NCBI GenBank assembly: GCA_944383415.1 | Contig: CALWPK010000003.1 | Coordinates: 1 to 64,000 of the forward strand | Origin: an uncultured Clostridia bacterium | GTDB lineage: Bacteria; Bacillota; Clostridia; Christensenellales; UBA1242 | Reading direction: 5' to 3' | DNA length: 64,000 nucleotides | Part shown: one piece after another, positions 29,424 to 54,054 of the stretch | How the letters are laid out: each line of letters starts with the position of its first letter | How positions within the stretch are numbered: position 1 is the stretch's first letter | Program-made: the position numbers and the translations under genes | The notes under the pieces: generated by a model | What the model was told of the DNA's origin: nothing | Databases searched by the model: none | The model's input: the letters and a program-made list of their open reading frames with translations, nothing else

Positions 29424-30152
29424 ATGACAAAAACTAAGAAAAGAAAAATGTCTAAGTCAACCTTTGCTATCATTATAATGGCAGTCGTTATGGTCGCTAT
29501 GCTCGCTTTCGGTGGCACTTACGCTTACTTTACTGCTACTGCTACTAAGAAAACTACTGGAAAATTTACCACTGGTAGTATCAAGTTGGAATCTAATGAT
29601 GATGCAACTTTCGTATCGGGATTAACAAACGTAGTTCCGGGTGATGCATTGACCACTGGAGTATTGACTTTGACTACGACATCTGCTGGTACAGATTCGT
29701 ACATAGCAATTAAAGTAACGATTGAAGCGACTGATGCTAAGGGTGCTACATTGGATTTGACTGGTACATCACTGGAATCAGCGATTGGACTATTGGCAAC
29801 TGAGCCAACTACAGGATCTAAATGGGTGGCTGGTACCGGAAACTATACTAATGTCTTTGTATTGGCTGCTACTAAGACTCCTACCAAAGTTGCTACGGCT
29901 CAAACAATCAAAATCACAGATGAAGCATTGATTTTCCAAGCGGACGACGATTGGAATCAAACCACAGCAGATGGTAGCCCAGATGATTACATCAGTGATA
30001 GTAAATTGATGGGTGCTACGCTCAATATTACTATTGAGGCTAGATCTGTTCAATCAGACAACTGGAACGATGGTGGTGATGCTCAAGTTGGCGGTACTGC
30101 TGCTACAGTTGATAAAATCGCAGCATTCTTATTCCCACATAGTGCTGGCTAA
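29424..30152 (+). CDS. TasA/CalY-like secreted protein (SipW-type signal)
   Basis: A 242-aa exported protein. A basic start (MTKTKKRKMSKS) leads into a hydrophobic core FAIIIMAVVMVAMLAFGG and the sequence GTYAYFTATATKK, typical of TasA/camelysin proteins cleaved by SipW-like signal peptidases. The mature part is a Thr/Ala/Gly-rich beta-sandwich type (GDALTTGVLTLTTTSAGTDS, YIAIKVTIEATDA). TasA relatives form extracellular fibres or biofilm matrix. The start follows AAGGGGTAAAAAA. No sipW is visible. A second TasA-like gene lies at 53353. Confidence 0.8.
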   Translation: MTKTKKRKMSKSTFAIIIMAVVMVAMLAFGGTYAYFTATATKKTTGKFTTGSIKLESNDDATFVSGLTNVVPGDALTTGVLTLTTTSAGTDSYIAIKVTIEATDAKGATLDLTGTSLESAIGLLATEPTTGSKWVAGTGNYTNVFVLAATKTPTKVATAQTIKITDEALIFQADDDWNQTTADGSPDDYISDSKLMGATLNITIEARSVQSDNWNDGGDAQVGGTAATVDKIAAFLFPHSAG

Positions 30153-30593: not shown

Positions 30594-31160
30594 GAATCAA
30601 TTTGTGACGAATGATTGACTGAAAGAGAAGTTTTTCGCTTGCCGAAAAACGATAATAAAGGTCAAATCACATTTAACAATACTTATGAAATACAAAGGGG
30701 GAGTAATGAGAGGGAAGTTAGTTTGCCCCTATTTATGGGGACCCCGCGAAACGGAGTTGAGGAGGGGGAGAGGAACAACTGATGAAGAGAAGAATTTGCC
30801 AACATATTGGCAAATGAATAAAGAATCAAGTTGTGACGAATGATTGACCGAAAGAGAAGTTTTTCGCTTGCCGAAAAACGATAATAAAGGTCAAATCACA
30901 TTTAATAATACTTATGAAATACAAAGGGGGAGTAATGAGGGGGAAAGTTAGTTTGCCCCCTCATAAAAGAGAGATGATCGCCTAAAAAAGAAGTTTTGCG
31001 AAAGCAAAACGATAATAGAAGGCGAATCACATCTAACAACACATACCAAATACAAAGGGGGAGCAATGAGGGGGAAAGTTAGTTTGCCCCCTCATAAAAG
31101 AGAGATGATCGCCTAAAAAAGAAGTTTTGCGAAAGCAAAACGATAATAGAAGGCGAATCA
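30594..31160 (+). repeat. Tandem array of structured repeats (four units)
   Basis: Units start at about 30594, 30823, 30969 and 31100 (the last is partial). Each has an outer stem (TGATTGACC/GGTCAAATCA in units 1-2, with GACT in unit 1; TGATCGCC/GGCGAATCA in 3-4) enclosing GAAG-hairpin-CGATAATA. The inner hairpin is GTTTTTCG/CGAAAAAC in units 1-2 and GTTTTGC-GAAA-GCAAAAC in 3-4, so pairing is kept while sequence changes. Units 2 and 3 continue with ACAAAGGGGGAG and a G5/C5 hairpin (ATGAGGGGG/CCCCCTCAT). Unit 1 has an insertion containing CCCCTATTTATGGGG. Confidence 0.85.
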
Positions 31161-32102
31161 TCTCTCTATCTCGACTATTTTCAAATCCACCGCATCCTGA
31201 TACACGATATAGTATCCCTCACTCAAAGGATCTTCCTGATCCAATGGCACCCATTGATAATTTTTGCCCAATTCTTCAGGAGCGGGAGAATTGTAGTTGC
31301 ATTTTACAGCATAGCAAATATATTTGATTTGGTCATTTTCATAGATCGCACCGATAGAATATTGTTCGCCATCTTCACTCATCTTTACGAATTTGCTGTT
31401 TGAGATCAATCTATTCAGATCTTCATCTGCAGGATAGTTTTCAAATATATATTTGAATTGCGGAATGATCGCATCCAGTATATTTGGGATCTGTCTTTCC
31501 ATTTCTTCTTTATTCTCTTCCAAATTTTCTATGTTATTTAGACTGTTGATGGTGCTTACCTCTTTTTCCTCCACATTTTCTATTATGTGATCGTTGGAAT
31601 TGTTGTCGACTTTTATATTTTTATATTCCTGAAATGAATTATCATAAAAGCATTTTTTGTATTCGCAATTTGCACATTTGTCAATGTTAAAATCGTTTGC
31701 ATTTTGATTTTCTCTATCTAGATATTGATCATCTTTGTGAGTGCTGTCTTTGTCAGAGAATACAGAAGTGTCGTCAAAATAGAATCCAGCGTAAGTACCA
31801 CCTGCTAGTAGCACTTTGTTGTCTGATGAGGTATCTATAATCGCGGTGTAAAAATCTGAATTCATATCAAAGTTTCCGAATAAGGAACTTTCATAACAAT
31901 CTCCCTTATCTATCAAATTGGCAGAATACACTTGATCGTTATGATAAATTCCCAATTTGCAAAATCTATTCAGTTTCTCTATTTGATACAATCTTAGTTT
32001 GCATTTCACTGAATTGTCATTTTCTTGATACAAAGTCAATATTCCTCTGCCAGACGAAGAGGATTGATCGACATTTGAAATTATAATAGTTTTGCTTCTC
32101 AT
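31158..32102 (-). CDS. Clostridia-type uncharacterised protein
   Basis: A 314-aa soluble protein. The N-terminal part (LTLYQENDNSVKCKLRLYQI, then GIYHNDQVYSANLI) and the C-terminal part (EQYSIGAIYENDQIKYICYA, ENDING with YQWVPLDQEDPLSEGYYIVY) match from memory a conserved Clostridia protein of unknown function. They are joined by a low-complexity Asn/Glu-rich linker with a Cys cluster (CANCEYKKC). A -10 (TATAAT) ends 7 bases before the ATG, so the mRNA is predicted leaderless. The stop codon overlaps the outer stem of the last unit of the repeat array, whose hairpin plus T-run on this strand could serve as terminator. Confidence 0.65.
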   Translation of the reverse strand: MRSKTIIISNVDQSSSSGRGILTLYQENDNSVKCKLRLYQIEKLNRFCKLGIYHNDQVYSANLIDKGDCYESSLFGNFDMNSDFYTAIIDTSSDNKVLLAGGTYAGFYFDDTSVFSDKDSTHKDDQYLDRENQNANDFNIDKCANCEYKKCFYDNSFQEYKNIKVDNNSNDHIIENVEEKEVSTINSLNNIENLEENKEEMERQIPNILDAIIPQFKYIFENYPADEDLNRLISNSKFVKMSEDGEQYSIGAIYENDQIKYICYAVKCNYNSPAPEELGKNYQWVPLDQEDPLSEGYYIVYQDAVDLKIVEIER

Positions 32103-53304: not shown

Positions 53305-53333
53305 TTGACAATTAATTTGTTATTATATACAAT
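53305..53333 (+). promoter_or_regulatory. Promoter of the second TasA-like gene
   Basis: TTGACA (53305-53310), 17 bp, TACAAT (53328-53333); AGGGGT precedes the ATG at 53353. Confidence 0.82.
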
Positions 53334-53352
53334 ACTTGTTATAGGGGTATCT

Positions 53353-54054
53353 ATGGTAAAAAATCGACTTAGCGGGCAGACTATCGCTATTATTATATTA
53401 TCTGTATTATTATTGTTGACTGCTTGTTTTGGTGGGGTATACGCATATTATAGCACCAATACAAGTAAGGTGTCTGGAAGAATTGTTATGGCGAACCTAA
53501 ATATTAATTTGCAGGCGGGGATAGGTGAGAGTGCTTCCAGTGAAATATTGGTATCAAATGGCGTATTTGTGCCTGGTCAACCATTAGAGAACACTCCACT
53601 TGTAGTGGTCAATGAATCTAACACTCCTATTTACCTTTCTATAATATACAAAGTAAATGCATCCAATATTGAGACTGGTGAACCTTTAGAAAATTACGAT
53701 GATACCAATCCATTGATAGATATTGGAATTGATGATGATAGTTTATGGTATGATTATTTATTTGTGACAACGGGCGAAGATGGACAAGAGGATAGATATA
53801 GGTGCCTGATCACAAAGACTCCTCAATATCCTACAGAAACCAATGAATATATTACCGTCATAGAAGAAAATGCTCTATCCATTCCAAGAACGTGGGGAGA
53901 CGAATTTCAGAATATGCAGATTAGTTTCTTGTTTCAAGCGTATGCTATTGGCTCAAATACATTCACTTTTTCAAGTGAAGATACTATAGATTTTAGATGT
54001 CAAGAGATTATGACTGCCATATACGAGGCGTATGAAGGGAAAATCAATATTTAA
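53353..54054 (+). CDS. TasA/camelysin-like secreted protein 2
   Basis: A 233-aa exported protein. The signal (LSGQTIAIIILSVLLLLTAC) runs into FGGVYAYYSTNTSKVSGRIV, the same GG-x-YAY(F/Y)-S/T junction as the protein at 29424. The mature domain includes VPGQPLENTPLVVVNESNTP and IYLSIIYKVNAS, the usual TasA-like beta pattern. ATG 53353 is chosen because ATAGGGGTATCT precedes it; the longer ORF start at 53305 is the promoter itself. It lies beside the Spo0A-C-like regulators, which in Bacillus-type logic would fit matrix control, but that is inference. Confidence 0.75.
   Translation: MVKNRLSGQTIAIIILSVLLLLTACFGGVYAYYSTNTSKVSGRIVMANLNINLQAGIGESASSEILVSNGVFVPGQPLENTPLVVVNESNTPIYLSIIYKVNASNIETGEPLENYDDTNPLIDIGIDDDSLWYDYLFVTTGEDGQEDRYRCLITKTPQYPTETNEYITVIEENALSIPRTWGDEFQNMQISFLFQAYAIGSNTFTFSSEDTIDFRCQEIMTAIYEAYEGKINI

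Follow-up and report, generated by a model that had tools for sequence, protein, structure and literature searches.

MITEs of the ERIC and RUP type are short, gene-less, palindromic and intergenic. BOX elements, organised as boxA-boxB(n)-boxC, are gene-less short interspersed repeats that are modular, vary in tandem number and form stem-loops, and in one Streptococcus strain 36 of 58 overlaps with coding sequences lie at gene 3′ ends where the BOX supplies the stop codon, according to the available part of the source (PMC3049150). REP, BIME and REPIN sequences, in the accessible sections of the reports on them, are intergenic palindromes arranged in mosaic clusters, with subfamilies that carry alternative complementary stems, with bulges, and with termini that give a TAG stop codon to flanking ORFs (PMC3733652, PMC8266576). 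The attC sites of integrons, as far as the available portion of one account goes, fold into imperfect hairpins that have paired boxes and a bulged base, with a spacer left unpaired in the centre and a top that varies (PMC8946536). The best-studied repeats of such kind have an identifiable mobiliser, whereas the genus described below, with gut genomes of about 1 Mb, keeps many copies of a palindromic repeat without a recognised one.

The DNA analysed here, referred to as the window, comprises 64,000 nucleotides (G000:C3:1-64000) of a draft genome of 1.09 Mb from the order Christensenellales. An array of hairpins lies between a TasA/camelysin-like gene (29424-30152), which matches Pfam Peptidase_M73, and a convergent gene for which a Pfam search gave no match (Table 1). 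A second TasA/camelysin-like protein can be recognised by eye at 53305-54054 and, unlike the first, has no Peptidase_M73 match. The initial annotation had described four repeated units within 30594-31160, and all four are present, interspersed with other hairpins between 30612 and 31167. Covariance-model matches fall at 30612-30668, 30841-30897, 30975-31028 and 31106-31159, with unit-to-unit spacings of 229, 134 and 131 nt. The stems had been quoted correctly, including GACT in unit 1, as had the switch from GACC/GGTC with GTTTTTCG..CGAAAAAC, which is also the apical hairpin of unit 1, to GCC/GGC with GTTTTGC..GCAAAAC in units 3 and 4. The right arm of unit 1 is short. The last unit is longer than had been proposed, its arms AGAGAGATGA..TCATCTCTCT reaching to about 31167, so that its right arm and the convergent gene's stop codon overlap; the G5/C5 hairpins are found at 30935-30964 and 31066-31095, ahead of units 3 and 4. 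The 573-nt array stretch folds far better than shuffled sequences on both strands (z -9.2 and -9.5), and the pattern GAAGTTTTNCG..CGNAAAACGATAATA occurs twice in the window against an expectation of 0.00.

Table 1. Positions of the hairpin modules and of the adjoining convergent gene in the window
Feature	Position	Strand	Description
H2 (type-B) unit 1	30612-30669	+	Proximal stem GACT/GGTC; 9/9-nt internal loop
Degenerate H1 (type-A) hairpin ATGAGAGGG..CCCCTATTTAT	30706-30736	+	AAAGGGGGAGTA just before; read from the sequence by comparison with the type-A family
E-like hairpin module GGAACAACTGAT..ATCAAGTTGTGACGA	30772-30839	+	Between units 1 and 2; read from the sequence, resembles modules in other arrays
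H2 (type-B) unit 2	30841-30898	+	Proximal stem GACC/GGTC
H1 (type-A) hairpin ATGAGGGGG..CCCCCTCAT	30935-30964	+	
H2 (type-B) unit 3	30968-31029	+	Left distal arm AGAGAGATGAT; right arm short
H1 (type-A) hairpin, second clean copy	31066-31095	+	
Terminal H2 (type-B) unit 4	31099-31167	+	Full-length distal arms AGAGAGATGAT..ATCATCTCTCT
Convergent protein gene, 314 aa	31158-32102	-	Array docked on the 3′ end of the gene

In the Rfam searches no family attains its gathering score over the array: the window yielded only tmRNA and tRNA above threshold, and 12 array loci yielded only tRNA, with a best sub-threshold E of 0.29 that falls outside the units. A DNA search gave matches in 22 of 99 genomes, the window's own included, and all of these belong to the same genus, which we infer to be Candidatus Onthoplasma, a member of the family UBA1242 in the available text of PMC12306168. 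The apical-hairpin pattern was found in 21 stretches of a named genome collection and in none of the viral contigs searched; 16 of the 21 are from MAGs called uncultured Clostridia or Candidatus Onthoplasma, and the other five (two from Buttiauxella and one each from Litoribacter, Paenibacillus and Oscillospiraceae) may be chance hairpins. The covariance model R1, built from 18 units, detected units at E<=0.01 in 27 of the 34 genomes of the genus, with 18 copies in G001 (the maximum), 16 in G020, 14 in G019 and 10 in G000, and no match at that threshold in the other seven. At E<=1e-5 the count was 23/34 within the genus versus 1/213 among family genomes outside it, and the array modules are thus almost wholly confined to this genus. 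The sole unit matches beyond the genus in the family search are two in G110 (C39:173-230 and C59:10664-10721). The Onthoplasma and repeat-element literature searched holds no description of these repeats that we could find, although one may still be in print; the word "repeat" is absent from the available part of PMC12306168, and the accessible text of PMC8040213, a study of structured RNAs of human microbiomes, makes no mention of them outside its supplements.

Applied to 88 loci, R1 identified 132 units, 123 of them distinct. The unit, termed H2 or type B, consists of variable arms, a 5-bp stem, a symmetric A-rich internal loop of 9/9 nt and an apical GTTTT..AAAAC hairpin, and it usually carries a 1-nt bulge on the 3′ side. 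The internal loop measures 9 nt on the 5′ side in 113/123 units and on the 3′ side in 111/123, with consensus sequences AAAAATGAA and GATAAAAAA-like, respectively. Two copies at L133 (1596-1654 and 1336-1394) have a wholly different apical hairpin (GTCCGCCTATG..) and keep the 9/9 loops. Since the four units of the window, with two stem variants, could not alone prove covariation, the wider set of copies was needed. Across the 123 distinct copies two-sided changes are seen in 13/13 pairs, and 92.2% of cells are paired versus 71.5% in shuffles and 37–60% in slid structures, figures that come from an alignment fitted to R1, which favours the structure, and from shuffles that ignore relatedness. 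A seed alignment made without the model agrees, with 91.1% paired against 73.7% when shuffled. The claim that structure is preserved by covariation is thereby borne out in the relatives, where the signal remains strong in the larger alignment and the copies are not merely recent duplicates of one sequence; the description of the element as paired, repeated and non-coding is likewise supported.

Beyond the 5-bp proximal stem, pairing is best when one extra base is allowed on the 3′ side, the next three positions then pairing in 0.78–0.84 of units, versus 0.36–0.64 without a bulge and 0.27–0.37 with a 5′ bulge. The 3′ bulge is the best single model in 81/122 units, ten of the 132 matches having been left out because they lacked flanks or stem columns or were duplicates, and exactly one 3′-side bulge is present in 54 of the 65 full-arm units. 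The distal arms pair within each copy and vary in sequence between copies. Wobble asymmetry was considered as proof of an RNA strand and rejected: a first count on the model-fitted alignment looked clear, but a symmetric recount of G.T versus A.C found an excess only in the proximal stem (31:10), with 7:5 in the apical and 21:26 in the distal stem.

The arrays are head-to-tail mosaics. Their typical module pair opens with H1, a short hairpin rich in GC (type A or C), and continues with H2, which is long and imperfect (type B, D or E); modules D and E are also found in the arrays. Array-terminal units have full arms, and the right arm is often short in inner units. Loose patterns place a type-A hairpin 5′ of the unit in 52 of 122 cases and a type-C hairpin in 36, while 5 cases match both patterns and 29 match neither, and a hairpin upstream was scored in 97/120 units compared with 47–60 of 114–118 in shifted controls, which is a weak test. 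Type A also covaries (34 rows, 97% paired versus 87.6%, double changes in 5/7 pairs), and type C combines short arms with an AA/GNA-like internal loop and with apical stems that vary in sequence (67 distinct by pattern). We rejected the reading of H1 as a Shine-Dalgarno sequence, ATG and short ORF (AAGGAGTAATGAGG...), because several copies have ATT, ATC or ATA together with the matching change in the opposite arm; pairing is kept where the apparent ATG is lost, so it is the pairing and not the codon that is preserved.

The units contact genes from one side. With convergent ORFs of at least 100 aa considered and two of 122 units near locus ends dropped, 46/120 units have their 3′ end no more than 15 nt from a tRNA end or a convergent stop codon (18 at tRNA 5′ ends, 7 at tRNA 3′ ends and 21 at convergent stops), a count that includes orthologous sites and does not represent 46 independent events. 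The 5′ end is docked likewise in 1/120, and shifted same-side controls gave 0–6 of 116–120. Of the 28 units that have a tRNA or tmRNA no farther than 40 nt away, 27 point their 3′ end toward that gene, and only 10/122 units are wholly contained in a mechanically called ORF of 100 aa or more. At six units the adjoining sequence matches at least 10 nt of a tRNA end without a complete tRNA having been called there, and four of the matches are only 10–25 nt long; such fragments lie directly 3′ of a unit at L116 (near 2260), L114 (2352 on), L124 (5417 on) and L136 (523 on).

Sites of this kind differ in occupancy between genomes. In 25 of 30 loci the 3′ end of the gene convergent with the window's array could be read (five gave no C-terminal motif); there, a unit with arms AGAGAGATGA is present in G000, G028, G005 and G004 and in part in G030, a unit with other arms is present in G020 and G010, and the site is empty in G025, G008, G014, G015 and others. 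The site formed by tRNA-Gln, a small gene and tRNA-His has an array in G000, G004, G028 and G019 and none in G025, and the arrays between the small gene and tRNA-His differ in the tRNA-proximal module. The filled and empty sites, none of them from near-identical strains, show TA|G junctions at several host stop codons and 10–25-nt tRNA-end fragments at a few. Contigs C10 and C1 of G001 share a 189-nt match that is 96.8% identical, one copy being cut at its 5′ side and without most of the 5′ hairpin, and two loci of G000 have in common an array end plus 10 nt of the tRNA-Leu 3′ end. Older array ends look decayed or cut at the 5′ side and the docked end is intact, a pattern that could mean either that arrays grow at the docked end or that copies are truncated on the 5′ side as they insert.

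Dispersal, polymorphic sites and mosaic arrays together argue for mobile DNA, and constant loops combined with stems that are free to change but remain paired argue for recognition of a folded strand. The array is thus probably a cluster of non-autonomous mobile palindromic repeats of the BOX/REP kind; of the two possibilities raised in the initial annotation, repeated ncRNA domains or a REP-like or transposable hairpin, it is the second that fits best, and the RNA reading did not gain support. Recognition of the folded single strand would fall to an enzyme that is either encoded elsewhere or supplied by the host, presumably through the strand's fixed features, namely the 9/9 internal loop, the 3′ bulge and the GTT..AAC foot of the apical hairpin, and the stem sequence could then drift freely so long as pairing holds. 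New copies would be inserted at gene ends with fixed polarity, and arrays would subsequently change through insertion, exchange and loss of modules, chiefly at the docked end; some copies, such as those over the tatD start site described below, may have been co-opted. Against mobility, the arms vary between copies, unlike ordinary terminal inverted repeats, and no clean target-site duplication has been established. Contact with gene ends could result in part from selection against other insertions, which does not however predict its one-sidedness.

Covariation is equally compatible with a folded single strand of DNA, and template-switch correction of palindromes can also produce it. Covariation cannot by itself decide among RNA, folded DNA and palindrome correction, and an RNA need not lie behind strong covariation in the intergenic DNA of bacteria. 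A functional RNA, in which the units are transcribed as read (+ strand) and work either in cis or as small RNAs, for instance by flanking tRNA precursors or covering ribosome-binding sites, would account for the strong covariation, the constant loops, the proximal-stem wobble excess and the sense docking at tRNA 5′ ends. It would also suit the start of tatD in G012, G019 and G021, where the unit covers the RBS and the TTG start codon, both in its right arm (L149:926-984; L104:1398-1456 and 1501-1559; L162:916-974), and in each species the left arm is complementary to the start region of that species; Pfam identifies the L162 protein as TatD, and the hairpin at this site is possibly a translational leader. 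We nevertheless consider a functional RNA unlikely as the general explanation, given that the wobble excess is absent from the apical and distal stems, type-B units stand both sense and antisense to their neighbours, no common gene function was seen among these neighbours, seven genomes of the genus have no match at E<=0.01 and neither does Rfam.

A bolder form of the mobile reading supposes a gene-less system whose strand-specific folded hairpins are recognised not by sequence but by internal loop and bulge and inserted with fixed polarity exactly at tRNA ends and at stop or start codons, with arrays extending module by module from their docked end along a route unlike any known for single-strand transposition or integrons; we hold this to be quite unlikely. 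It is very improbable that the units are terminators of the opposite strand, in which the apical hairpin and a following T-rich stretch would end the transcript of the docked gene. Four of the seven terminator-like sites on the - strand of the region (0.7 expected) are indeed apical hairpins, with tails TTCTTTTTTA or TTCTCTTTC, and docking at convergent stops and tRNA 3′ ends is as expected, but 18 docked units are sense-upstream of tRNAs, where termination makes little sense, the 7-bp A+T-rich stem is weak, and mosaic arrays, constant 9/9 loops and the bulge would be superfluous. An integron-like cassette array, in which a tyrosine recombinase would join the units as folded single-strand recombination sites, is most improbable: the architecture is attC-like and the arrays are polar with turnover at one end, but no attC-like conserved end box was seen among the unit flanks listed, nor were an integron or gene cassettes, the units are scattered over many sites, and G005, G029, G003 and G032 carry units with a single tyrosine recombinase, presumably Xer (counted together whatever their type, tyrosine recombinases occur in 32/34 genomes).

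Returning to mobile palindromic repeats, the units have most general traits in common with BOX and REP, among them intergenic palindromes in mosaic clusters and the provision of stop codons to adjacent genes (PMC3049150, PMC3733652). The traits that set these units apart are covarying arms around constant internal loops, one-sided docking at gene ends and the lack of a recognised mobiliser. Compared by general architecture, they differ from BOX in modules, order and lineage, and the available part of PMC3049150 mentions neither arms that covary around constant loops nor docking at tRNAs nor docking confined to the 3′ side. The GTAG/CGTC tag found at the foot of REP palindromes is present in only 2/65 (+ strand) and 5/65 (- strand) full-arm units, which are moreover longer than REP, stand in same-orientation tandems and have no matching Y1 transposase (TnpA-REP/RAYT). 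As the tests for the REP tag and transposase failed, the units constitute a separate variant of short interspersed palindromic repeats. Like ERIC/RUP-type MITEs they are short, gene-less, palindromic and intergenic, and some of their junctions read TA|G at host stops, but their arms do not form a terminal repeat conserved between copies. Should the docking reflect a preference in insertion, it would be a new way for mobile DNA to avoid harming a compact genome, and if it is a function, it would place a covarying hairpin beside tRNA processing sites and start codons; under either reading, the 123 aligned copies and the model make the question directly testable.

Genes for Y1 transposases, reverse transcriptases and IS630-type transposases do not track the units. 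IS630 was discarded as mobiliser, IS630-type DDE_3 being found in 0/34 genomes, as was retroposition by a resident reverse transcriptase, which is present in 8/34 and was not found in G000 or G001. Y1 transposase occurs in 7/34 genomes of the genus but in neither G001 nor G019, both rich in copies. IS200 was rejected as mobiliser because the Y1 genes at the seven loci read are flanked by end hairpins of their own and not by these units. These loci (L056, L057, L058, L059, L060, L061 and L062) are IS200-type, and several are broken or lie near contig ends.
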